64,000 nt of DNA. It comes from Dialister hominis (GTDB lineage Bacteria; Bacillota; Negativicutes; Veillonellales; Dialisteraceae). A program made the translations under genes and the position numbers. The notes beneath the pieces were generated by a model. The model saw only the letters and a program-made list of their open reading frames with translations. It was not told the origin of the DNA and made no database searches. Below are positions 10,927 through 58,310 of the stretch, in pieces (positions within the stretch are counted from its first letter, which is position 1; the number at the start of each line of letters is the position of its first letter). The DNA lies in contig NZ_AP019697.1 in the NCBI RefSeq assembly GCF_007164725.1, positions 2,132,501 through 2,196,500 of the forward strand, written 5' to 3'.

Positions 10927-10954
10927 CCATTGATTTCTCAAAGTCCTTGTCCGG

Positions 10955-11168
10955 CCCTGTCCTTTTGCCTGAGAGATTGAGGCTTGCGCCTTTTGCACCT
11001 TCGGCTTCCGCATCGTTTCAGCGGAGATCTCCAGAGTTATGTCCGCATACAGTTTCGTGTCCTTTGAACGCCTGATAGTGTTACTCCTTCGGCAGTCTCC
11101 GAAAGGTGTATATTGAATAAGTATACACTTTTCATCCTCGAGCTCTTTCTGTATGCATCATCCATTAC
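10955..11168 (-). promoter_or_regulatory. Tandem glycine riboswitch 1
   Basis: Read on the minus strand, a leader GGATGATGC is followed by aptamer 1 (GCCGAAGGAGTAACACTATC, AGGCG, GGAC). A linker CTCTGGAGA then leads into aptamer 2 (GCCGAAGGTGCAA, CTCTCAGGCAAAAGGACAG). These are the conserved glycine-riboswitch cores. The leader GGATGA may pair with the linker to form the known P0 kink-turn (inference). A terminator follows before the symporter gene. Confidence 0.93.
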
Positions 11169-14469: not shown

Positions 14470-14514
14470 TGTATGTATGCATCCACGCATAGCCGGGAGT
14501 TACCCTGCTGCCAG

Positions 14515-14697
14515 CCCTGTCCTTTTGCCTGAGAGATTCGGGATCAAAGATCCCTTTGCACCTTCGGCGTCCGCATCTTTTCAGCGGAACTCTCCAGAGA
14601 TGTGTCCGTACACAGTTTCGTGTTCTCAGAACGCCTGATAGTGTTACTCCTTCGGCAGACATTTTCATGTCATTTTTCCGTGTACTTCATCCACCCT
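14515..14697 (-). promoter_or_regulatory. Tandem glycine riboswitch 2
   Basis: Minus strand: GGATGAAG leader, GCCGAAGGAGTAACACTATC, AGGCGTTC, GGACAC, CTCTGGAGAG, GCCGAAGGTGCAA and CTCTCAGGCAAAAGGACAGG in order. The order is the same as riboswitch 1, with different peripheral stems. A 75-nt extra leader carries a GTACGGGAACCCGTAC palindrome. Confidence 0.93.
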
Positions 14698-17215: not shown

Positions 17216-17261
17216 TGTATGTATGCATCCATGCATAGCGGGAGTTACCCACGTGCCAGCC

Positions 17262-17452
17262 CTGTCCTTTTGCCTGAGAGATTCGGGATTTACGGGTGAA
17301 ATCCCTTTACACCTTCGGCGCCCAATCGAATGGGACTCTCCAGAGTTGTGTCCGTACACAGTTTCGTGTTCTTCTGAACGCCTGATAGTATTACTCCTTC
17401 GGCAGAGTGCCCTTTCAGCTCTCATTTTTCAGTGTACATCATCCACAGATAT
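17262..17452 (-). promoter_or_regulatory. Tandem glycine riboswitch 3
   Basis: Minus strand: GGATGATGTA leader, GCCGAAGGAGTAATACTATC, AGGCGTTC, GGACACAACTCTGGAGAG, GCGCCGAAGGTGTAAAG and CTCTCAGGCAAAAGGACAGG. All core motifs of both aptamers are present. Confidence 0.93.
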
Positions 17453-19210: not shown

Positions 19211-19257
19211 TGTCTATCCTAAAACGAGTACGAAAAAATCGTAAGAACGTTTCTTTA

Positions 19258-19432
19258 TGCTCTGTCCTTTTGCCTGAGAGATTGGGACCTTGCGATCCTT
19301 ACACCTTCGGCGCTCATTTGTGAGACTCTCCAGAGTGTGTCCGCAACCGGTACCGCCTCTTGCGAGGCACCTGAGAGTGTTACTCCTTCGGTAAGCCATA
19401 CGGCTTTCTCCCACTTGCATCATCCACCAATA
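19258..19432 (-). promoter_or_regulatory. Tandem glycine riboswitch 4
   Basis: Minus strand: GGATGATGCA leader, GGGAGA, ACCGAAGGAGTAACACTCTC, AGGTGCC, GCGGACA, CTCTGGAGAG, GCGCCGAAGGTGTAAGG and CTCTCAGGCAAAAGGACAGAG (split at 19258-19278). This copy shows both P1/P3-type halves most clearly. Confidence 0.94.
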
Positions 19433-25894: not shown

Positions 25895-26149
25895 ACAGAC
25901 TCCTTCCATGCGTACCATGTATAAAACATCCAATCATTATACGCCAGATCAATCATTCTTTCTACAATTATTATAACAGAGAAAACGGCCGGATATATAG
26001 AAATTATCGAATCTTTCTATTCCTTTTTTGAATCTGGTTTCATACCTTTTCCGTATGGGAAAGCGGCAGGAATGCAGGGAGTGGAGGGTAGGAGGTGGTA
26101 CGGGTCTTGGCATTTTAGCGGTGCTCGTCCACTTCCCCATTTTCCCAAT
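25895..26149. other. Intergenic region upstream of Sel1-SGNH operon
   Basis: AT-rich near 25930-26030, likely the operon promoter region. Nothing else is recognised. Confidence 0.4.
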
Positions 26150-26180
26150 CAAAAAGACCAGCTTTACGGCTGGCCTTTCT
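26150..26180 (-). terminator. Intrinsic terminator after small gene SP6
   Basis: GGCCAGC CGTAAA GCTGGTC followed by TTTTT on the minus strand, about 45 bp after the stop. Confidence 0.85.
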
Positions 26181-26223
26181 GATTTATATGCATAGATTGG
26201 TGGATTCAATCCATGGAAACAAA

Positions 26224-26508
26224 TTATTTGTCTTCTTTCAGAGCATCGACGATTTCTTCGGCTCTTTCCATTGTCTTTTCTGCGACATAGCCGGAGAATT
26301 CATGTTTCTTCTTCAGATCTTCGACTGCTTTCTCATCGACTTTTTCTACTTCTGTTTCACCGCTGACGTCTTTGTCAGCCTGGCCCATTGCGTCTTCGAG
26401 CTGCTCAGCACGTTCCATCGTTTTCTCTGTACGGAAACCGGAGAATTCGTGCTCCTTTTTCTTTTTCTCAATGGCCTCTTCTGTCATTTCTTCTACTTTC
26501 TTTTCCAT
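26224..26508 (-). CDS. Small two-repeat protein of the KxxERA family (SP6), 94 aa
   Basis: I know no named family for this protein. It is hydrophilic, rich in Lys and Glu, and consists of two related halves: residues 1-45 with KEHEFSGFRTEKTMERAEQL and 55-94 with KHEFSGYVAEKTMERAEEI. The same core (aromatic-x-Gly-aromatic, then K/R-x-[LM]-ER-A) occurs in the five small genes upstream. It is predicted helical, with no membrane segment. It has its own promoter (26684-26712), a leader of about 170 nt and a terminator. AAAGGATGACGA supports the start. Confidence 0.8.
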   Translation of the reverse strand: MEKKVEEMTEEAIEKKKKEHEFSGFRTEKTMERAEQLEDAMGQADKDVSGETEVEKVDEKAVEDLKKKHEFSGYVAEKTMERAEEIVDALKEDK

Positions 26509-26683
26509 GATTCGTCATCCTTTCTTGAAGAAAAAACTCCCCAAATACGACTAGCGCCGTACCATCAAGCCCCCGGGTTATTACAAGTGACGGGCAGCGT
26601 CGAAAAATGACTGCCTCATGACGATAGAACCCCCGATTGAATTATGAGTACTATCTCTATGAAGTATCTGACTATCTGTTTAT

Positions 26684-26712
26684 AGTATAGATGTTTTTCG
26701 AAATACAGACAA
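26684..26712 (-). promoter_or_regulatory. Promoter of SP6
   Basis: TTGTCT, 17 nt, TATACT on the minus strand. The -10 sequence TATACTAT is shared with the promoters at 27300 and 28248. Confidence 0.65.
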
Positions 26713-26793
26713 ACAAATTCAATTTGTGGAAGTCACAAGTTTTATTTGTAGGAATGATTACCAATAGCGCTATTGCGACATGTATGCAGACAA

Positions 26794-26876
26794 TAAAAAA
26801 GAACCCATCGCGGGCCCAAAGGGGTCTACTTCCCCGAGGGAAAGTCCCGAAACCGGTTCTTCTTTGTACTCCATAA
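26794..26876 (-). terminator. Large structured terminator or small RNA 3' end
   Basis: Minus strand: outer stem GAACC/GGGTTC, then CGGG/CCCG enclosing two hairpins (TTTCCC..GGGGAA and ACCCC..GGG), ending in TTTTTT. This is more elaborate than the usual terminator. It may end readthrough from the gene at 26994 or be a separate RNA. Confidence 0.5.
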
Positions 26877-26915
26877 TTATAGGCGAAAAAATAAATTGTC
26901 AACAGAGACCCCGCT

Positions 26916-26957
26916 AAAAAGGAGCCTTGCAGCAATGCTTCAGGGCTCCTTTTTAAC
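26916..26957. terminator. Bidirectional terminator after SP5
   Basis: AAAAAGGAGCC ... GGCTCCTTTTT with a 17-base loop, 37 bp after the stop of the 57-residue gene. Confidence 0.8.
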
Positions 26958-26993
26958 AGTGCTTTGATTGATCATTTTTTTATCCTCGGGGAA

Positions 26994-27167
26994 TTACGCC
27001 GGGTGTTTTGCCATGTGTCTGGCCGATTTTCTCGGATGGCCAAGGACACAATCGTTGATGTATGCTGCGCGGTCGAGTTTTCTCTCAGCCAGGTAGCCGA
27101 AGTAACCGTATTCCTTCTTGAAATGCTTGACGCCTTTTCTGATTTCATACTCTAAGATTTTCATCAT
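26994..27167 (-). CDS. Small protein of the KLxRA family (SP5), 57 aa
   Basis: A basic 57-residue protein with the family core YGYFGYLAERKLDRAAYI, close to the core of the tandem copies (FYFGYMAARKLERADYV). The C-terminus is Arg/His/Lys-rich (HPRKSARHMAKHPA). GGAAGGATTTATC precedes ATGATG; either ATG could be used. It has its own promoter and a leader of about 125 nt that contains CCGGAAACCCGG-type hairpins. The function is unknown; aromatic plus basic residues would allow nucleic-acid or membrane-surface binding (speculation). Confidence 0.78.
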   Translation of the reverse strand: MMKILEYEIRKGVKHFKKEYGYFGYLAERKLDRAAYINDCVLGHPRKSARHMAKHPA

Positions 27168-27299
27168 GATAAATCCTTCCCTTCCGCTCTTGAACGACCG
27201 GGAGATCCCGCGCTGTATGCCTCCTTTCTGCTGGTACCGGGTTTCCGGTGATATGAAGGAAATCTCGGGAATTCCGGGCCTTTCCTTCCTTTCACCTAT

Positions 27300-27329
27300 A
27301 GTATAGATTTCCTACTATACTAAATCCAA
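27300..27329 (-). promoter_or_regulatory. Promoter of SP5
   Basis: TTGGAT, 18 nt, TATACT on the minus strand, preceded by AAACAG. The hexamers, the spacing and CAGTTGGAT are the same as in the promoter at 28248. Confidence 0.75.
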
Positions 27330-27364
27330 CTGTTTTAGATAGTACTTTTTACTGATTGTTTTTG

Positions 27365-27592
27365 TTACTTTTCATTCTCGATGATGCGGCTGGCACGCTC
27401 GAGGTTTTTCTTTTCCTTGTAGGAAACGTAGTCTTCAGAAGACTCTTCCTTTTCACCTTTGGAAGCAGCTGCCTTCTCTTCCATGGCTTCCGCTCTTTCC
27501 AGGTTCTTCTCACTCTTGAAGGCTGTGTACGGACTCTCTTCTTTCATGTCCTCAACGGCTTTCTTATTGACTGTATCAATGATTTTTTCCAT
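27365..27592 (-). CDS. Small two-repeat protein of the KxLERA family (SP4), 75 aa
   Basis: Starts MEKIIDTVNKKAVEDMK, nearly the same as the tandem copies, then carries two degenerate cores (YTAFKSEKNLERAEAM and YVSYKEKKNLERASRI). It is acidic in the middle, with no signal peptide. It lies 30 bp after the third tandem copy and is probably in the same transcript. Confidence 0.78.
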   Translation of the reverse strand: MEKIIDTVNKKAVEDMKEESPYTAFKSEKNLERAEAMEEKAAASKGEKEESSEDYVSYKEKKNLERASRIIENEK

Positions 27593-27622
27593 GATTCCTG
27601 CTTCCTTTCTGCCGGTATTTTC

Positions 27623-27790
27623 TTAGACAGCGGCTTTGATTTTCTTAGCTTCCGGTTTTCTGAGGCCGCTGATGGTTTCTACGTAATCGGCTTTTTCCAG
27701 TTTCCTGGCTGCCATGTAGCCGAAGTAGAAGTTATCCTTCTTCAATGCTTTGACTGCTTCCTTGTTTTCACGATCAATGATTTTTTCCAT
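27623..27790 (-). CDS. Small protein of the KLERA family (SP3), 55 aa
   Basis: Third tandem copy. The core FYFGYMAARKLEKADYVETI is followed by SGLRKPEAKK, and the last five residues (IKAAV) differ from copies 1 and 2 (VRIAI). AAAGGGAGTCTATAAA precedes the ATG. Helical, basic, with no export signal. Confidence 0.78.
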   Translation of the reverse strand: MEKIIDRENKEAVKALKKDNFYFGYMAARKLEKADYVETISGLRKPEAKKIKAAV

Positions 27791-27820
27791 TTTATAGACT
27801 CCCTTTCTGACTTGATTTCC

Positions 27821-27988
27821 TTAAATAGCGATTCTGACTTTCTTGGCTTCCGGTTTTCTGAGGCCGCTGATGGTTTCTACGTAATCGGCTCTTTCCAGTT
27901 TCCTGGCTGCCATGTAGCCGAAGTAGAAGTTATCCTTCTTCAATGCTTTGACTGCTTCCTTGTTTTCACGATCAATGATTTTTTCCAT
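27821..27988 (-). CDS. Small protein of the KLERA family (SP2), 55 aa
   Basis: Second tandem copy, with the core FYFGYMAARKLERADYVETI and end KKVRIAI; the protein is identical to copy 1. AAAGGGAGTCTATAAA lies before the ATG. Confidence 0.8.
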   Translation of the reverse strand: MEKIIDRENKEAVKALKKDNFYFGYMAARKLERADYVETISGLRKPEAKKVRIAI

Positions 27989-28018
27989 TTTATAGACTCC
28001 CTTTCTGACTTGATTTCC

Positions 28019-28186
28019 TTAAATAGCGATTCTGACTTTCTTGGCTTCCGGTTTTCTGAGGCCGCTGATGGTTTCTACGTAATCGGCTCTTTCCAGTTTC
28101 CTGGCTGCCATGTAGCCGAAGTAGAAGTTATCCTTCTTCAATGCTTTGACTGCTTCCTTGTTTTCACGATCAATGATTTTTTCCAT
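28019..28186 (-). CDS. Small protein of the KLERA family (SP1), 55 aa
   Basis: First tandem copy and first gene of the SP1-SP4 transcript. The frame is open 35 codons upstream, but that part covers the promoter and leader. The ATG at 28186 follows GGAAGCATACAAA and matches the start of the other copies. The protein is a 55-residue helix-rich chain: a MEKIIDRENKEAVKALKK head, the aromatic core and a basic end. No database family comes to mind. Confidence 0.8.
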   Translation of the reverse strand: MEKIIDRENKEAVKALKKDNFYFGYMAARKLERADYVETISGLRKPEAKKVRIAI

Positions 28187-28247
28187 TTTGTATGCTTCCT
28201 TTCTGTGTTCATTTCTTTGATTTTCTTGATCTCTTCGATCTGTCCAT

Positions 28248-28277
28248 AGTATAGGTTTTTCAAGTAACAATATCCAA
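28248..28277 (-). promoter_or_regulatory. Promoter of SP1-SP4 operon
   Basis: TTGGAT, 18 nt, TATACT on the minus strand. It is divergent from the LysR gene 70 bp away, so LysR could act here (inference). Confidence 0.75.
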
Positions 28278-28349
28278 CTGTTTAAATTCATATATTTTAC
28301 ATGGTATTTTTGTTATAATGAAGAAAATGAACCATGGAAAGGAGTTACT

Positions 28350-29291
28350 ATGAACTTTCAATCGCTGCATTATTTCATCATGCTCGCGAGGGAGAAGAAT
28401 TTCACACGCGCAGCTGAGAAACTCCATATTTCCCAGCAGACGCTCTCTGCCAGCATCGCCGCGCTGGAGCGCGAGCTGAACTGCAAGCTTATCATCCGCC
28501 ATGTCCCCCTCGAGCTTACGTATGGAGGAAGGACCTTCTTCCATTACGCCCTCTCTCTCACAGGCGAAGAGGAATCCATGCGCCGCTCCCTCCTCGACAT
28601 CGCAGAAGAAAAAACAGGAGAACTGCGTATCGGCGTCGGCTATGTCCGCGGCAGGACCCTTCTTCCGCCCATCCTGAAGAAATTCGGGGACAAGCACCCG
28701 GGCGTCACATTCCGCATTCTGGAATCCACGAATAAACAGCTCAGGACCCGCCTCGTCGAAGGCGATATCGACCTCTCCATCGGGCACTACAGGGAAGTCC
28801 CGCCAGGCATTGAAATAGAACCGATCTACGAAGAACAAATCTGCCTCCTCATCACAAAGAAACTCTTCGACGAAACCGTAGAAGGCACCATCGAGGAAGT
28901 CTCCGCCGCTCTCCAGAGGGACGTCAAAGAAGGCATGCGTCCCTTCGCCAAATGCCCCTTCCTGAATACCCGGGGCGAAAACGTCTCCGGCTACTTCGAG
29001 ACACTCTACCTCGCCGAAGCGCCCTTCACACCCTTCATCCGCTGCATGTCCAACAACATGGAAACCCTCCTCTGCCTCTCCGGAAAAGGCATGGGCGCCC
29101 TCTTCTGCCCCCAGAACCTCGTCCGCTCCTCCCTTTCCAAAGAAGACCTCAGGGAAATGTACGTCATCCCCCTGCCGGAGACCAAGTATGCCATGTCCGT
29201 AGGCGTAAGGACAAAAGCCGCCCCCTGGTCCATCCGCGATGAATTCATACAGCTCCTGAAGGAAGAACTCGCGAGGGAGAATGGAATTTAA
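28350..29291 (+). CDS. LysR-family transcriptional regulator
   Basis: A 313-residue regulator. The N-terminal winged helix-turn-helix reads FIMLAREKNFTRAAEKLHIS and QQTLSASIAALERELNCKL. The C-terminal periplasmic-binding-like effector domain begins near residue 90 (GELRIGVGYVRG). Four cysteines are spread in the effector domain. GGAAAGGAGTTACT sets the start. It is transcribed divergently from the SP1-SP4 operon, the arrangement in which LysR proteins often control the neighbouring operon. The effector is unknown. Confidence 0.93.
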   Translation: MNFQSLHYFIMLAREKNFTRAAEKLHISQQTLSASIAALERELNCKLIIRHVPLELTYGGRTFFHYALSLTGEEESMRRSLLDIAEEKTGELRIGVGYVRGRTLLPPILKKFGDKHPGVTFRILESTNKQLRTRLVEGDIDLSIGHYREVPPGIEIEPIYEEQICLLITKKLFDETVEGTIEEVSAALQRDVKEGMRPFAKCPFLNTRGENVSGYFETLYLAEAPFTPFIRCMSNNMETLLCLSGKGMGALFCPQNLVRSSLSKEDLREMYVIPLPETKYAMSVGVRTKAAPWSIRDEFIQLLKEELARENGI

Positions 29292-29407
29292 AAAGGGGAA
29301 ATATTGAGGAAAACCATAAAAAGGGGAAAAAGAAAGAAAACCATACAACAGGAAAACCCTTAAAACAAAAGGGAAAATGGGAAAAGAAAAAAAACAGAAA
29401 ACAAAAA

Positions 29408-29423
29408 TGTTTCACGTGAAACA
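29408..29423. promoter_or_regulatory. parS site 2
   Basis: TGTTTCACGTGAAACA, a perfect ParB-binding palindrome, in the gap after the LysR gene. Confidence 0.93.
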
Positions 29424-29434
29424 TTTTTAGTAAA

Positions 29435-29790
29435 AGAAGGAAAACCTTACGACCGCAGCTTTGCTGCGTGGTAATCAAACCTATCCGCCGGCCTTTTTAG
29501 AAAATGAACCCCTTTCGGCGCATCCGCGCCACTTTCCCCTAACGGGGACAGCTTTTACCGCTGGTGCTGTTCGCCTTTTTATCACTTTCGATTTTGAAGA
29601 TGTGAGAGGAAACAATTTCAGCGCTTTTGGGAGTCCCCGTTAGGGGAAGCTGTCGAACTTTTAACACTGATGTTCGACTGAAGGTGTGCATGATTCATCG
29701 CACCTAAAACTATAAAAATGTTCCACGAGCATCGTGAGGTCGTCCGGTTTTTCGCCCGATTCCATCGAGCTTCTACAGTTTCCCCTCCAT
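29435..29790. repeat. Hairpin-mosaic intergenic repeat, block 7
   Basis: CCGCAGCTTTGCTGCGTGG, GTAATCAAACCTATCCGCCGG, GCATCCGCGCC, CTTTCCCCTAACGGGGACAGC and again CCCCGTTAGGGGAAGCTGTC in reverse at 29633-29652. It also holds a diverged part of the long module (AAGGTGTGCATGATTCATCG) at about 29680. Confidence 0.65.
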
Positions 29791-29800
29791 TTCCCCATCA

Positions 29801-29850
29801 AAAAAAGGGCTGTAACAAAATGGTTAATCATTTTGCTACAGTCCCCTTTT
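29801..29850. terminator. GGGCTGTnACAAAATG hairpin, solo copy
   Basis: AAAAAAGGGCTGTAACAAAATG / CATTTTGCTACAGTCCCCTTTT is a 20-bp imperfect palindrome. It works as a bidirectional terminator and is nearly the same as the right terminus of the IS1182 elements. Confidence 0.75.
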
Positions 29851-29909
29851 CTATTGGAATATTCCATTAAAGGATACTAACAAATGTATTTATTGGTTCT
29901 ATCTGAAAA

Positions 29910-30055
29910 CCTCAAAACCTCGCTTTGCTCGAGAACTACATCTCATTCCCCGGCTTCGCCGGGACCTTCTCCTTTGGAACAAGGTTAACACCCTTAAACC
30001 TCGCTTCGCTCGATGGAAATGCACCCCTCTCACGCAGCGAGCTTCTCCGGTTTTC
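29910..30055. repeat. Hairpin-mosaic intergenic repeat, block 8
   Basis: CTCGCTTTGCTCGAG, GAACTACATCTCATTCC, CCGGCTTCGCCGG, ACCTTCTCCTTTGGAACAAGGT and CTCGCTTCGCTCGA. The block at 47.57 kb is almost the same. Confidence 0.75.
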
Positions 30056-30070
30056 CTCCATTTCCGCATC

Positions 30071-30112
30071 AAAAAAAGCATTGAAAGCTCGTTTCGAGTT
30101 TTCAATGCTTTT
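30071..30112 (-). terminator. Intrinsic terminator of Sel1 genes 2-3
   Basis: AAGCATTGAAA(A)CTCG / CGAG(T)TTTCAATGCTT with T runs on both sides, about 13 bp after the stop of Sel1 gene 2. Confidence 0.88.
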
Positions 30113-30124
30113 TCTTTGGATTTC

Positions 30125-33434: not shown

Positions 33435-35245
33435 GGGGATGTGACAAAATTCATCCCAACAAAAAAGGCTCTGCCCCGGATCATTTGGTCCGGGGCAGAG
33501 CCTTTCGTGTTATAATTTTTTACAATGAAAAATAACAACACTAGCAATCATTTTACCGCAGAACAAGGCATTTTGCCAATGTTTCCCTCTGAGATTCTCA
33601 ATGTCGATGATCCTGTTTTAATGTATGACAGATTTATGGAGGAAATCGATCTTAAAAAGTACCTTCGTTACATACCGACGCGTGGCGCTGGCAGACCCAG
33701 GTATAATCCCGTCAACATGCTGAAAACGATCATCTATGGTTTCGCAGAAGAAGGATATTGCTCTTTTAGAAAACTTGAAGATAATTGCAGGGTTAATATC
33801 AGATATATGTACCTGATGAATTATGAAGCCCCATCCTATCGGACATTCTGTCATTTCGTGAAGGGCTTTCTTAAGTATTCTCTCAAGGATATCTTTTATT
33901 CAATTACGAAAGAACTCTGCGGCAAACTCAACGTGGATTTGCAGCATATATATATTGACGGTTCCAAGTTTGAAGCGAACGCAAATAAATACAGCTGGGT
34001 ATGGAAGAAATCCGCTGAAAAATCCCGCTACAAGCATTTTGCCAAGATTACCAGCCTTTTTGAGTTACTCAATGATGATCTTAAGTATGACCATATGAGT
34101 GTAAACATCAATACAGAATACGCTCCGGACTATCTGCGTCTGGTATTGGATAAATTAAAAGAAATCTGGCAGATTGATGAGACGGCCTTTGTTCATGGAA
34201 GCGGGCATCGCAAGTCCGATCATCAACGCAAGTATGAGCAGCTTAAGGCATATACATCAAAACTTGAAGAATATGTTGAGAAGATACAGATATGCGGTAC
34301 TTCCAGAAACAGTTATTCGAAGACCGATACGGATGCAACATTCATGCGAATCAAGTCGGACTACATGGGAAATGATCAGCTTCTGCCTGCATACAATGTC
34401 CAAATAGGTGTTGCCGATGAATTTATTGCCGTAATTGATGTTAACCAGTATCGTTCAGATATGGATTGCTTCGTACCGCTGATGGAGGAATTCCACGAAG
34501 TCTATGGGGCTTATCCTAAGTATCCTGTGGCAGATGCAGGATATGGATCTTTCAACAATTACATCTATTGCGAGCAGCACGGTATGGAAAAGTATATGAA
34601 ATTCCCCATGTACAAGAAAGAAACGAAAGACAAGAAATACCATACCAATCCGTTTCGGCCAATAAACTTTAGAGTTGATGAGAATGGAACCATCCGTTGT
34701 CCAAATGACAGGGCTTTCAAATTTATCTATAGACATCTGGTCAGAGGGAACTTATACGGCAGGCAGGAGGAAGTATTTGAATGCGAAGACTGCCAAGGAT
34801 GCCCGCTGGCAGAGCAATGTAAAAAGACCCCGAAGAACAAAAGAATCTCATTGAGCAGAGAACGGAATAACATGTACCAGGAGGTTCAGGATAATCTGGA
34901 AAGCATCCATGGAGCCCTGCTAAGAATGAACCGGTCAATCCAGGCTGAAGGAACTTTTGGAATCATGAAACATGACAGATGGTACAAAAGAATCGTCAGA
35001 AAAGGGATAGATTCTGTAAAAGCCGAGTTATACCTGGTAGCACTTGGCTATAATTTAAGGAAATACATCACAAAAATAATGCGTATAAGGATTGCCGCCT
35101 AAGACAATATAATTAAAAGTCTTATGGGGGTAAGGGGGCTTACGCGCATTTTTACGTAAAAGGCTTACAGCAGAGCTAAAAATGATGAAATAAAGACGCA
35201 AAAAAGAGGCTGCAACAAAATGATTAACCATTTTGTCACAGCCCC
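33435..35245 (+). mobile_element. IS1182-family element, copy 1 (1811 bp)
   Basis: Bounded by inverted ends GGGGATGTGACAAAATTCAT and GGGGCTGTGACAAAATGGTT (right end read on the minus strand). All three copies in the window have exactly this length. Each end also carries a hairpin: GGCTCTGCCCCGGA..TCCGGGGCAGAGCC on the left and GCTGCAACAAAATG..CATTTTGTCACAGC on the right. No obvious target duplication; the flanks are A runs on the left and T runs on the right. Confidence 0.93.
33525..35102 (+). CDS. IS1182-family DDE transposase, copy 1
   Basis: A 525-residue transposase with an N-terminal DUF772 domain (RYNPVNMLKTIIYGFAEEGY) and a DDE domain: IYIDGSKFEANANKYSW (first Asp), PVADAGYGSFNNY (second Asp) and QAEGTFGIMKHDR (Glu). 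A four-Cys zinc cluster CEDCQGCPLAEQCKK lies before the Glu. It differs from copies 2 and 3 by one residue (His for Leu in KSRYKHFAK). TATAAT ends only 8 nt before the ATG and no ribosome-binding site is visible, so the message is probably leaderless. Confidence 0.95.
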   Translation: MKNNNTSNHFTAEQGILPMFPSEILNVDDPVLMYDRFMEEIDLKKYLRYIPTRGAGRPRYNPVNMLKTIIYGFAEEGYCSFRKLEDNCRVNIRYMYLMNYEAPSYRTFCHFVKGFLKYSLKDIFYSITKELCGKLNVDLQHIYIDGSKFEANANKYSWVWKKSAEKSRYKHFAKITSLFELLNDDLKYDHMSVNINTEYAPDYLRLVLDKLKEIWQIDETAFVHGSGHRKSDHQRKYEQLKAYTSKLEEYVEKIQICGTSRNSYSKTDTDATFMRIKSDYMGNDQLLPAYNVQIGVADEFIAVIDVNQYRSDMDCFVPLMEEFHEVYGAYPKYPVADAGYGSFNNYIYCEQHGMEKYMKFPMYKKETKDKKYHTNPFRPINFRVDENGTIRCPNDRAFKFIYRHLVRGNLYGRQEEVFECEDCQGCPLAEQCKKTPKNKRISLSRERNNMYQEVQDNLESIHGALLRMNRSIQAEGTFGIMKHDRWYKRIVRKGIDSVKAELYLVALGYNLRKYITKIMRIRIAA

Positions 35246-44337: not shown

Positions 44338-45336
44338 TTACTTGTCAGAGGGGAGCATCATGTCCTGCATTTCCTCGATCATGCCGACGGAGCCGCTTTC
44401 GATCAGCTTCCTGAATTCTTCGAGCTGATCCTTGATTTCCTTCGACATTTCAGGGAACTTCGGCGCGATGTCCTTCAGTGCCTTGATGACGATCTGGGCG
44501 ACGACGTAGCGAGTGTACCATTTCTGGTCAGCCGGGACGATGTACCATGGCGCCTCTTTCAGGGAGGTTTCGGAAATCATTTCGCTGTACAGTTCCTGGT
44601 AACGGTCCCAGTAGCGGCGTTCGTTGATATCTGCCATGGAAAATTTCCAGTTCTTCTGCTTGTTGAGGATTCGTTCGGCCAGGCGGTCGCGCTGTTCATC
44701 CTTCGATACGTGCAGGAAAATCTTGACGATTGGGAAGCCGTTTTCATTCAGGTACGTTTCCCAGTCGCGGATCTGACGGTAGCGTATATCCCAGATATCC
44801 TTGCTGATGAGGTTCTTCGGCATCTTGCCCTGCTCGATCAGATTATGGACGCGGGAAACGATGACGTCTTCATAGTGGGAACGGTTGAATACGCCGATAT
44901 CCCCGCGGCGTGGAAGGGCTTTGTTAATGCGCCACATGTAATCGTGGTCCTTTTCCTCTTCGGTCGGCTGCTTGAAGGAAACGACGTGGACCCCGTTCGG
45001 ATCGAGATGAGAGAATACGTGCTTGATTGTGCTGTCCTTGCCGGCAGCGTCCATCGCCTGCAGGACGATGATGAGCCCGTAAGTGCTCTGCGCGAAAAGC
45101 TTCGCCTGCAACAGGCTGATTTCATCAAGTGCCTGCGGGAATGCATAGTTCTTCACGGCACTCTTGTCCACATCCTGATCGCAGTACGTGGCGAACTTCT
45201 TAAGGTTGATCGTATCGCCTTCCTTGACGCGGTATCTATCGATGTCAATTTTTATTTTCGCATCCTTGTAGTCTTTTACGCCTTTGATTTCTTTGACATC
45301 ATTTACTTCGGTCTTTCCTTTTGTCTCGTTCTCCAT
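44338..45336 (-). CDS. Polyphosphate kinase 2 family protein, copy A
   Basis: A 332-residue PPK2 enzyme that moves phosphate between polyphosphate and nucleotides. Walker A VLQAMDAAGKDSTIKH, the PPK2 segment SFKQPTEEEKDHDYMWRI, Walker B GVFNRSHYEDV and the lid-region NKQKNWKFSMADINERRYWD are all present. The N-terminal 30 residues are a Lys/Asp-rich extension (GKTEVNDVKEIKGVKDYKD). It lies 34 bp after copy B in one operon. The class (AMP or ADP as acceptor) cannot be set from sequence alone. Confidence 0.93.
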   Translation of the reverse strand: MENETKGKTEVNDVKEIKGVKDYKDAKIKIDIDRYRVKEGDTINLKKFATYCDQDVDKSAVKNYAFPQALDEISLLQAKLFAQSTYGLIIVLQAMDAAGKDSTIKHVFSHLDPNGVHVVSFKQPTEEEKDHDYMWRINKALPRRGDIGVFNRSHYEDVIVSRVHNLIEQGKMPKNLISKDIWDIRYRQIRDWETYLNENGFPIVKIFLHVSKDEQRDRLAERILNKQKNWKFSMADINERRYWDRYQELYSEMISETSLKEAPWYIVPADQKWYTRYVVAQIVIKALKDIAPKFPEMSKEIKDQLEEFRKLIESGSVGMIEEMQDMMLPSDK

Positions 45337-45370: not shown

Positions 45371-46327
45371 TTAGTTTTCCTTGTTTTCCTTCGATGCCTT
45401 CTCGGAAAGCGTCGTCTGGATTTCTGCCAGTTCCTTCACGTCCACCTGGGCGATGAGCTTCTTGAACGTTTCCAGCTGCTTCTGTACTTCCGGATCCAGC
45501 TTCGGGAACTGCGGATCGATTTTCTTCAGCGCCTGCAGCGTGATGAGGGCGACGATGTAGCGGGTGTACCACTTCTGGTCTGCCGGTATGATGAACCATG
45601 GCGAAATGTCTTTCGACGTCTTCGAAATCATTTCCTCATACAGCTCCTGATAGCGGTCCCAGTACTGCCTTTCATTGATATCCGACATCGAGAATTTCCA
45701 GTTTTTCTGCTGGTTCACGATACGGTCGATCAGGCGCTTCTGCTGCTCTTCCTTCGATACATGGAGGAAAATCTTGATCATCATGAACCCGTTCTGACGA
45801 AGGTACTTCTCCCAGTTATTGATCTGCTCGTAGCGTTCTTCCCAGATATTCTTATTCACCAGATTCTGTGGCAGCTGGCCCTGATGGACCAGGTCATGGA
45901 TGCGCGTCACGATGACATCCTCATACTGCGAACGGTTGAAAATCCCGATATCCCCGCGTTCCGGCAGCGCCTTATTGATACGCCACATGTAATCGTGGTC
46001 TTTTTCCTCCGTAGTCGGCTGCTTGAAGGAAACCACCTTCACACCGCCAGGATTCAAACTTGCAAAGACATGATTGATCGTACCGTCCTTGCCGGCCGCA
46101 TCCATCGCCTGGAGCACGACCACGAGCCCGTACGTATTCTGCGCGTACAATTTCTCCTGCAGATCCTTGAGCTTTTCGATCACCTGCGGGAAATACAGAT
46201 TCTTCACCTGAGACTTGTCTATAGAAACATCGCACTTCGTGCTGTATTTCTTCAGATTGACCTTTTCGCCTTCCTTGACCATGTAACGGGTAACGTCTAC
46301 CTTGCCGTCCTTGATTTCATCAGCCAA
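45371..46327 (-). CDS. Polyphosphate kinase 2 family protein, copy B
   Basis: A 318-residue paralogue of copy A with the same motifs: VLQAMDAAGKDGTINH, SFKQPTTEEKDHDYMWRI, GIFNRSQYEDV, NQQKNWKFSMSDINERQYWD. At the Walker A the Ser of copy A is Gly, and at Walker B His is Gln. The start codon is TTG (TTG GCT GAT GAA), with GGGGGGA 6 nt before it. It is the first gene of the pair. A strong AT-rich promoter region with TATAAT lies upstream near 46370. Confidence 0.93.
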   Translation of the reverse strand: MADEIKDGKVDVTRYMVKEGEKVNLKKYSTKCDVSIDKSQVKNLYFPQVIEKLKDLQEKLYAQNTYGLVVVLQAMDAAGKDGTINHVFASLNPGGVKVVSFKQPTTEEKDHDYMWRINKALPERGDIGIFNRSQYEDVIVTRIHDLVHQGQLPQNLVNKNIWEERYEQINNWEKYLRQNGFMMIKIFLHVSKEEQQKRLIDRIVNQQKNWKFSMSDINERQYWDRYQELYEEMISKTSKDISPWFIIPADQKWYTRYIVALITLQALKKIDPQFPKLDPEVQKQLETFKKLIAQVDVKELAEIQTTLSEKASKENKEN

Positions 46328-47836: not shown

Positions 47837-49647
47837 GGGGCTGTGACAAAATGGTTAATCATTTTGTTGCAGCCTCTTTTTTGCGTCTTTATTTCATCAT
47901 TTTTAGCTCTGCTGTAAGCCTTTTACGTAAAAATGCGCGTAAGCCCCCTTACCCCCATAAGACTTTTAATTATATTGTCTTAGGCGGCAATCCTTATACG
48001 CATTATTTTTGTGATGTATTTCCTTAAATTATAGCCAAGTGCTACCAGGTATAACTCGGCTTTTACAGAATCTATCCCTTTTCTGACGATTCTTTTGTAC
48101 CATCTGTCATGTTTCATGATTCCAAAAGTTCCTTCAGCCTGGATTGACCGGTTCATTCTTAGCAGGGCTCCATGGATGCTTTCCAGATTATCCTGAACCT
48201 CCTGGTACATGTTATTCCGTTCTCTGCTCAATGAGATTCTTTTGTTCTTCGGGGTCTTTTTACATTGCTCTGCCAGCGGGCATCCTTGGCAGTCTTCGCA
48301 TTCAAATACTTCCTCCTGCCTGCCGTATAAGTTCCCTCTGACCAGATGTCTATAGATAAATTTGAAAGCCCTGTCATTTGGACAACGGATGGTTCCATTC
48401 TCATCAACTCTAAAGTTTATTGGCCGAAACGGATTGGTATGGTATTTCTTGTCTTTCGTTTCTTTCTTGTACATGGGGAATTTCATATACTTTTCCATAC
48501 CGTGCTGCTCGCAATAGATGTAATTGTTGAAAGATCCATATCCTGCATCTGCCACAGGATACTTAGGATAAGCCCCATAGACTTCGTGGAATTCCTCCAT
48601 CAGCGGTACGAAGCAATCCATATCTGAACGATACTGGTTAACATCAATTACGGCAATAAATTCATCGGCAACACCTATTTGGACATTGTATGCAGGCAGA
48701 AGCTGATCATTTCCCATGTAGTCCGACTTGATTCGCATGAATGTTGCATCCGTATCGGTCTTCGAATAACTGTTTCTGGAAGTACCGCATATCTGTATCT
48801 TCTCAACATATTCTTCAAGTTTTGATGTATATGCCTTAAGCTGCTCATACTTGCGTTGATGATCGGACTTGCGATGCCCGCTTCCATGAACAAAGGCCGT
48901 CTCATCAATCTGCCAGATTTCTTTTAATTTATCCAATACCAGACGCAGATAGTCCGGAGCGTATTCTGTATTGATGTTTACACTCATATGGTCATACTTA
49001 AGATCATCATTGAGTAACTCAAAAAGGCTGGTAATCTTGGCAAAAAGCTTGTAGCGGGATTTTTCAGCGGATTTCTTCCATACCCAGCTGTATTTATTTG
49101 CGTTCGCTTCAAACTTGGAACCGTCAATATATATATGCTGCAAATCCACGTTGAGTTTGCCGCAGAGTTCTTTCGTAATTGAATAAAAGATATCCTTGAG
49201 AGAATACTTAAGAAAGCCCTTCACGAAATGACAGAATGTCCGATAGGATGGGGCTTCATAATTCATCAGGTACATATATCTGATATTAACCCTGCAATTA
49301 TCTTCAAGTTTTCTAAAAGAGCAATATCCTTCTTCTGCGAAACCATAGATGATCGTTTTCAGCATGTTGACGGGATTATACCTGGGTCTGCCAGCGCCAC
49401 GCGTCGGTATGTAACGAAGGTACTTTTTAAGATCGATTTCCTCCATAAATCTGTCATACATTAAAACAGGATCATCGACATTGAGAATCTCAGAGGGAAA
49501 CATTGGCAAAATGCCTTGTTCTGCGGTAAAATGATTGCTAGTGTTGTTATTTTTCATTGTAAAAAATTATAACACGAAAGGCTCTGCCCCGGACCAAATG
49601 ATCCGGGGCAGAGCCCTTTTTGTTGGGATGAATTTTGTCACATCCCC
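47837..49647 (-). mobile_element. IS1182-family element, copy 2 (1811 bp, inverted)
   Basis: Same ends and length as copy 1, opposite orientation. The flanks are CGGCAAAA on one side and TTTTGCCG on the other, so the element sits in the middle of a palindrome. It lies between parS 5 and the recF terminator. Confidence 0.93.
47980..49557 (-). CDS. IS1182-family DDE transposase, copy 2
   Basis: 525 residues, identical in protein to copy 3 and with one residue different from copy 1 (Leu in KSRYKLFAK). The frame is intact and the DDE residues are kept. The same leaderless arrangement is seen (TATAAT 8 nt from the ATG). Confidence 0.95.
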   Translation of the reverse strand: MKNNNTSNHFTAEQGILPMFPSEILNVDDPVLMYDRFMEEIDLKKYLRYIPTRGAGRPRYNPVNMLKTIIYGFAEEGYCSFRKLEDNCRVNIRYMYLMNYEAPSYRTFCHFVKGFLKYSLKDIFYSITKELCGKLNVDLQHIYIDGSKFEANANKYSWVWKKSAEKSRYKLFAKITSLFELLNDDLKYDHMSVNINTEYAPDYLRLVLDKLKEIWQIDETAFVHGSGHRKSDHQRKYEQLKAYTSKLEEYVEKIQICGTSRNSYSKTDTDATFMRIKSDYMGNDQLLPAYNVQIGVADEFIAVIDVNQYRSDMDCFVPLMEEFHEVYGAYPKYPVADAGYGSFNNYIYCEQHGMEKYMKFPMYKKETKDKKYHTNPFRPINFRVDENGTIRCPNDRAFKFIYRHLVRGNLYGRQEEVFECEDCQGCPLAEQCKKTPKNKRISLSRERNNMYQEVQDNLESIHGALLRMNRSIQAEGTFGIMKHDRWYKRIVRKGIDSVKAELYLVALGYNLRKYITKIMRIRIAA

Positions 49648-56499: not shown

Positions 56500-58310
56500 G
56501 GGGATGTGACAAAATTCATCCCAACAAAAAGGGCTCTGCCCCGGATCATTTGGTCCGGGGCAGAGCCTTTCGTGTTATAATTTTTTACAATGAAAAATAA
56601 CAACACTAGCAATCATTTTACCGCAGAACAAGGCATTTTGCCAATGTTTCCCTCTGAGATTCTCAATGTCGATGATCCTGTTTTAATGTATGACAGATTT
56701 ATGGAGGAAATCGATCTTAAAAAGTACCTTCGTTACATACCGACGCGTGGCGCTGGCAGACCCAGGTATAATCCCGTCAACATGCTGAAAACGATCATCT
56801 ATGGTTTCGCAGAAGAAGGATATTGCTCTTTTAGAAAACTTGAAGATAATTGCAGGGTTAATATCAGATATATGTACCTGATGAATTATGAAGCCCCATC
56901 CTATCGGACATTCTGTCATTTCGTGAAGGGCTTTCTTAAGTATTCTCTCAAGGATATCTTTTATTCAATTACGAAAGAACTCTGCGGCAAACTCAACGTG
57001 GATTTGCAGCATATATATATTGACGGTTCCAAGTTTGAAGCGAACGCAAATAAATACAGCTGGGTATGGAAGAAATCCGCTGAAAAATCCCGCTACAAGC
57101 TTTTTGCCAAGATTACCAGCCTTTTTGAGTTACTCAATGATGATCTTAAGTATGACCATATGAGTGTAAACATCAATACAGAATACGCTCCGGACTATCT
57201 GCGTCTGGTATTGGATAAATTAAAAGAAATCTGGCAGATTGATGAGACGGCCTTTGTTCATGGAAGCGGGCATCGCAAGTCCGATCATCAACGCAAGTAT
57301 GAGCAGCTTAAGGCATATACATCAAAACTTGAAGAATATGTTGAGAAGATACAGATATGCGGTACTTCCAGAAACAGTTATTCGAAGACCGATACGGATG
57401 CAACATTCATGCGAATCAAGTCGGACTACATGGGAAATGATCAGCTTCTGCCTGCATACAATGTCCAAATAGGTGTTGCCGATGAATTTATTGCCGTAAT
57501 TGATGTTAACCAGTATCGTTCAGATATGGATTGCTTCGTACCGCTGATGGAGGAATTCCACGAAGTCTATGGGGCTTATCCTAAGTATCCTGTGGCAGAT
57601 GCAGGATATGGATCTTTCAACAATTACATCTATTGCGAGCAGCACGGTATGGAAAAGTATATGAAATTCCCCATGTACAAGAAAGAAACGAAAGACAAGA
57701 AATACCATACCAATCCGTTTCGGCCAATAAACTTTAGAGTTGATGAGAATGGAACCATCCGTTGTCCAAATGACAGGGCTTTCAAATTTATCTATAGACA
57801 TCTGGTCAGAGGGAACTTATACGGCAGGCAGGAGGAAGTATTTGAATGCGAAGACTGCCAAGGATGCCCGCTGGCAGAGCAATGTAAAAAGACCCCGAAG
57901 AACAAAAGAATCTCATTGAGCAGAGAACGGAATAACATGTACCAGGAGGTTCAGGATAATCTGGAAAGCATCCATGGAGCCCTGCTAAGAATGAACCGGT
58001 CAATCCAGGCTGAAGGAACTTTTGGAATCATGAAACATGACAGATGGTACAAAAGAATCGTCAGAAAAGGGATAGATTCTGTAAAAGCCGAGTTATACCT
58101 GGTAGCACTTGGCTATAATTTAAGGAAATACATCACAAAAATAATGCGTATAAGGATTGCCGCCTAAGACAATATAATTAAAAGTCTTATGGGGGTAAGG
58201 GGGCTTACGCGCATTTTTACGTAAAAGGCTTACAGCAGAGCTAAAAATGATGAAATAAAGACGCAAAAAAGAGGCTGCAACAAAATGATTAACCATTTTG
58301 TCACAGCCCC
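56500..58310 (+). mobile_element. IS1182-family element, copy 3 (1811 bp)
   Basis: Same ends and length as copies 1 and 2. The flanks are AAAAAAATTT on the left and TTTTTTGATG on the right. It lies 58 bp after the exonuclease-RNase H stop and marks the start of an AT-rich patch. In opposite orientation to copy 2, with oriC between. Confidence 0.93.
56590..58167 (+). CDS. IS1182-family DDE transposase, copy 3
   Basis: 525 residues, the same protein as copy 2; intact DDE residues and zinc cluster. TGTTATAAT (extended -10) ends 8 nt before the ATG, with the terminator-like hairpin just upstream in place of a -35. Confidence 0.95.
   Translation: MKNNNTSNHFTAEQGILPMFPSEILNVDDPVLMYDRFMEEIDLKKYLRYIPTRGAGRPRYNPVNMLKTIIYGFAEEGYCSFRKLEDNCRVNIRYMYLMNYEAPSYRTFCHFVKGFLKYSLKDIFYSITKELCGKLNVDLQHIYIDGSKFEANANKYSWVWKKSAEKSRYKLFAKITSLFELLNDDLKYDHMSVNINTEYAPDYLRLVLDKLKEIWQIDETAFVHGSGHRKSDHQRKYEQLKAYTSKLEEYVEKIQICGTSRNSYSKTDTDATFMRIKSDYMGNDQLLPAYNVQIGVADEFIAVIDVNQYRSDMDCFVPLMEEFHEVYGAYPKYPVADAGYGSFNNYIYCEQHGMEKYMKFPMYKKETKDKKYHTNPFRPINFRVDENGTIRCPNDRAFKFIYRHLVRGNLYGRQEEVFECEDCQGCPLAEQCKKTPKNKRISLSRERNNMYQEVQDNLESIHGALLRMNRSIQAEGTFGIMKHDRWYKRIVRKGIDSVKAELYLVALGYNLRKYITKIMRIRIAA

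Follow-up and report, generated by a model that had tools for sequence, protein, structure and literature searches.

A cluster of six small genes and the LysR-type regulator gene that it faces were analyzed in a 64,000-nucleotide stretch (the window) of the Dialister hominis genome (G000, 2.41 Mb in a single contig). The six genes encode a genuine small-protein family that has a narrow known distribution and is matched by no library searched. The reading that is somewhat favored is a regulator-plus-effector module, in which the LysR protein controls a set of amplified, soluble, helical small proteins. A more specific proposal, judged to fall a little short of an even chance, is that of a genus-restricted cassette that relocates as a unit and in which the whole regulon of the LysR protein is this one soluble helical family, amplified and doubled for dose or valency. 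Annotation of small proteins is generally poor, and it is seldom known what regulates them. For this module, a probable regulator and a probable operator (Table 1) are available together with targets that can be counted, and ligand, induction, and phenotype are therefore directly testable. A LysR protein with small proteins as its only visible targets would be unusual.

Table 1 Features of the small-gene cluster and its probable regulator, with positions given in the window.
Feature	Positions	Strand	Evidence
g1, 55-aa small protein, first gene of the array	28019..28186	-	ORF and RBS-like AGAAAGGAAG 5′ of the ATG
g2, 55 aa, protein identical to g1	27821..27988	-	198-bp tandem unit
g3, 55 aa, 91% identity to g1	27623..27790	-	ORF, sequence comparison
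g4, 75-aa acidic paralogue, second core weaker	27365..27592	-	Core alignment, pI
g5, 57-aa basic paralogue	26994..27167	-	Core alignment, pI
g6, 94-aa acidic paralogue, two clear cores	26224..26508	-	Core alignment, pI
Promoter/operator of the g1-g4 unit, CAGTTGGAT-N18-TATACTA	28247..28280	-	Exact motif
Promoter/operator of g5, identical exact motif	27299..27332	-	Exact motif
Probable g6 promoter, TTGTCT-17-TATACT, related but weaker	26684..26712	-	
Terminator-like hairpin 3′ of g5	26915..26955	-	-21.6 kcal/mol, z -2.9
Terminator-like hairpin 3′ of g6	26147..26184	-	-23.4 kcal/mol, z -5.6
LysR-type regulator, head-to-head with g1, probable controller	28350..29291	+	PF00126 4.5e-18, PF03466 1.6e-22

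The lengths and coordinates of all six minus-strand open reading frames (ORFs), as given in a preliminary description of this DNA, were confirmed, and an RBS-like sequence is located 5′ of each. It had been suggested that routine gene calling would miss three of the genes because of their small size; this is doubtful, since an ORF of 168 nt exceeds the usual 90-nt lower limit of gene callers. The assignment of the six proteins to a single family holds: all pairs of cores align better than 2000 of 2000 shuffled sequences (z 7.8-34.6), except where one partner is the second g4 core. This second core scores above all shuffles only against the first core of g4 (z 5.2) and gives z values of 1.3-3.4 against the others. 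The presence of two cores, described for two members, is therefore firm for the 94-aa g6 and weaker for the 75-aa g4. Within the core as first described, [KR]-x-[LM]-x-[RK]-A is the steadier part, whereas the aromatic-Gly-aromatic part is not universal; it is replaced by TAF and VSY in g4 and by VLWF in a homologue from other species. The first three genes are arrayed in tandem, with a repeat unit of 198 bp. The g1 and g2 units differ only in a stretch 5′ of the start codon, and g3 differs from g2 at eight bases, seven of which are near the C-terminal end. Genes g1-g3 were amplified by tandem duplication, and g6, perhaps also g4, by internal doubling. Together, the amplification and the core doubling suggest a role for dose or valency.

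No Pfam, NCBIfam, PHROGs, PADLOC, or PDB sequence match above noise was found for the small proteins. The family was rightly called unrecognized, as its members reach no curated Pfam or NCBIfam cut-off, and the 55- and 57-aa proteins have no Pfam match even at an E value of 10. A match of g6 to KLRAQ, at 17.8 bits where the cut-off is 27.3, fits the coiled-coil composition of this protein. Spo0E-like proteins carry an SQELD motif; this motif is absent from the sequences, and no Spo0E-like Pfam match is observed up to an E value of 10. The proposed relation to phages is not supported: no phage gene lies nearby and none was recognized among the ORFs of the window. Searches of PHROGs gave nothing for g1/g2, g4, g5, or the homologue and weak coiled-coil-type matches only for g6, g1 has no match among 50,697 phage records, and no IMG/VR relative was found.

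Two further species of the genus (G003 and G005) each encode one 50-aa homologue of g1, contrary to the lack of homologues elsewhere that the preliminary description had named as a refuting result. This gene, which the core profile had missed, came to light by reading the neighborhoods of the closest LysR homologues, where it is located directly upstream of the LysR gene and in the same direction. The alignment of the homologue with g1 spans 43 columns and is gap-free, and 0 of 5000 shuffled sequences align as well. The G003 and G005 copies differ at nine bases, and all nine differences are silent. In simulations of nine random substitutions, sets with silent changes only made up 0-2 of 300,000, a number that varied with the ts/tv ratio (P ~7e-6 or less). 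The family is therefore coding and under selection, which bears out the claim that these are real genes, and these silent changes provide the best evidence for its translation and selection. Differences at third positions are also in excess between the distant paralogues.

Outside the genus, no homologue was found by profile and homologue searches of 380 genomes of the class (one genome per species, including twelve genomes of the family). The core profile, a check that had been suggested in the preliminary description, returned the genome of the window and chance matches only, and the 50-aa homologue gave convincing matches only in G003 and G005. Weak matches in three genomes that belong to a single genus (g14) were discarded, as they apparently fall in frames of another gene that are non-coding. 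A match at 1215885 in the genome of the window, which lies among binding-protein genes and runs through a stop, was likewise rejected. Scans of GTDB contigs for g1 and for the LysR protein returned nothing; these are weak negatives, because exact 8-residue matches were required and near records were possibly absent.

The head-to-head arrangement of the cluster and the LysR gene was confirmed, and both the HTH_1 and LysR_substrate domains are present in the encoded protein. The link is stronger than adjacency, as the promoter/operator is conserved in three species and the regulator and small genes share a change of place. The window LysR protein is 44-45% identical to those of G003 and G005 versus 37% to the other LysR proteins compared, and the genes for these closest homologues likewise adjoin the small gene. 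A recognition-helix stretch, QQ[TA]LSAS, is common to the proteins from the window, G003, and G005, with LSAH found in the others compared. The sequence AACAGTTGGAT-N18-TATACT stands before g1, g5, and the homologue. G000 has two exact copies of CAGTTGGAT-N18-TATACTA, one before g1 and the other before g5, and G003 and G005 have one copy each; no further site is present at zero or one mismatch in the twelve genomes of the family. A search with the left half of the motif alone recovers these four exact sites, together with a single site that has one mismatch (G007 C130). A two-mismatch promoter match in G002 falls inside a secY-like gene and was discarded. As far as the motif shows, the regulon would thus consist of the small genes alone. 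The claim of dedicated promoters has good support for g1 and g5 and weaker support for g6. The operator, which contains an imperfect dyad, is assigned to the LysR protein only by linkage; this protein probably reads the motif directly, and a different factor could do so instead.

Terminator-like hairpins follow g5 and g6, and the cluster is therefore probably organized as three transcription units (g1-g4, g5, and g6), with a candidate hairpin RNA in the g5-g6 interval. This candidate small RNA forms a stable hairpin (26797-26870, minus strand, -33.3 kcal/mol, z -2.9) with a TTGACA-type promoter-like site on its 5′ side (26873-26902) and a T-run on its 3′ side. The DNA of this region (26780-26960) has only short chance matches in relatives and no clear relative in 60 genomes, and no Rfam family scores above the gathering score in the cluster, the candidate included. 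The leaders of g6 (26509-26675, minus strand, ~165 nt) and g5 (27168-27290, minus strand, ~120 nt) considerably exceed the g1 leader in length, and the portions of them that were folded are no more stable than shuffled sequences. The stable hairpin and its promoter-like and terminator-like signals could be taken to mean that the region makes regulatory RNAs and that the ORFs are untranslated. This explanation is scarcely credible given the silent-only changes between G003 and G005, the RBS-like sequences at six of six ORFs, and the third-position excess between distant paralogues.

The chromosomal position of the module differs between lineages. In G003 and G005, the gene order is a probable histidine kinase, a response regulator, the small gene, the LysR gene, and two AEC-type genes, the first of which matches PF03547. 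The matching response regulator and AEC genes of G000 are ~280 bp apart, and the LysR and small genes are absent between them. In G004, an unrelated gene is found between the response regulator and AEC genes, with no module. The LysR and small genes of the window instead lie between two Sel1 genes. The matching Sel1 genes of G003 and G005 are neighbors, separated by ~470-800 bp of repeat-rich DNA in which no trace of LysR or small-gene remnants is detectable. Each site is empty in the other lineage, and the regulator and small genes stay together in both arrangements while their position differs. Two mutually empty chromosomal places, the dispersed repeats beside the window copy, and the side-by-side occurrence of acidic and basic paralogues would also fit a selfish or addiction-type mobile cassette, in which the LysR and small genes serve mainly their own maintenance, as in toxin/antitoxin pairs. 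This explanation is improbable, however, as the module interior contains no integrase or recombinase, no PADLOC match rises above noise, the GC content of the LysR gene equals that of its neighbors, and LysR regulators are unusual in toxin-antitoxin systems. A recent gain from a distant donor, for which the lower GC content of the small genes (0.43 versus 0.50) had been considered, was likewise rejected; this low value could be due to a lysine-rich composition, and the LysR gene does not share it.

To describe the small proteins structurally, fold models are available for g1 and g6. The g1 model, which is of moderate confidence (pLDDT 75) and has five sequences of one genome as its basis, predicts a helical hairpin (helices 2-19 and 21-40) followed by a disordered tail. 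The model of the 94-aa g6, with two long helices, is poor (pLDDT 63). A Foldseek search of the PDB with the g1 model gave nothing usable. The window proteins contain no hydrophobic segment, in disagreement with the earlier idea of a surface-protein system. The highest 19-residue mean hydropathy ranges from -0.84 to -0.10 for these proteins and is 0.66 for the homologue. The pI values are 9.6-9.8 for g1-g3 and g5, 5.0 for g4, and 4.7 for g6. Based on the lack of a hydrophobic segment and this pI range (4.7-9.8), the small proteins of the window are probably cytosolic.

The predicted fold bears on another explanation, in which the LysR-linked module is kept and the small proteins act on the regulator, on transcription, or on RNA, as Rop-like or anti-regulator feedback modulators. 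Rop and Spo0E are small helical-hairpin modulators of about 50-90 aa that contain two helices and act by partner binding. The window proteins resemble them in size class and in their two predicted helices but have neither a sequence match nor a fold match to them. Feedback of this type would agree with the two-helix hairpin model, with a motif that marks the small genes only, with the basic character of g1-g3 and g5, and with a LysR linkage retained through the change of place. The acidic g4 and g6 are ill-suited to nucleic-acid binding, though, and no known modulator is matched by sequence or fold, which makes this explanation unlikely.

In the favored regulator-plus-effector reading, the LysR protein would recognize the conserved AACAGTTGGAT site, which overlaps the -35 region, and, in the presence of its ligand, would turn on a set of small soluble proteins. 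These proteins are predicted to form a hairpin of two helices followed by a variable tail. Helix 2, where the aromatic residues and the [KR]-x-[LM]-x-[RK]-A core are located, is the probable face for self-association or partner docking. The likeliest signal would be a carboxylic acid or a related metabolite, because the related LysR gene precedes two AEC-type carrier genes in the sister species. Pairs of LysR and AEC-carrier genes serve organic acids. The G003 and G005 loci resemble such pairs, with two AEC-type genes after the LysR gene, whereas the window LysR has no AEC partner and the small genes are its only apparent targets. Since the window LysR gene has no AEC neighbor, this proposed ligand is drawn from two closely related genomes (G003 and G005). 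The likeliest job of the small proteins, by analogy with WatR/WatS, may be to modulate a transporter or enzyme under carboxylic-acid or metabolite stress. A stress role is possible; an organic-acid or stress function, taken on its own, is doubtful.

In Methylomonas sp. DH-1, the LysR-type regulator WatR controls WatS1-5, mutually homologous and unannotated proteins of ~50 aa whose promoters carry a shared site; each of WatS1-4 is predicted to have a single transmembrane segment, and an RND pump is also under the control of WatR (PMC10355033). The window is similar in its combination of a LysR-type regulator, several homologous ORFs of ~50 codons, and a shared promoter site, and a link to organic acids is a possible further likeness. 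In contrast to WatS1-4, the window proteins have no transmembrane segment, and they differ further in that some have doubled cores and all are encoded in one cluster beside the regulator. The parallel is proposed as one of logic, set side by side by description, with no claim of common descent.

Additional features are observed elsewhere in the window. Repeats of 25-210 bp, dispersed and in part palindromic, are found in many intergenic stretches, including 29300-30120 beside the module. A 525-aa transposase-like gene is present in three near-identical copies (33525-35102, 47980-49557, and 56590-58167), and further copies interrupt the region near rpoA in L146. Four glycine riboswitches are located on the minus strand within ~9 kb (10947-11044, 14507-14607, 17252-17353, and 19252-19343), each upstream of an amino-acid/cation symporter-like gene, one of which appears by eye to be of the dicarboxylate or AGCS type. 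Finally, two adjacent paralogous genes on the minus strand (44338-45336 and 45371-46327) are, by eye, polyphosphate kinase 2-like.
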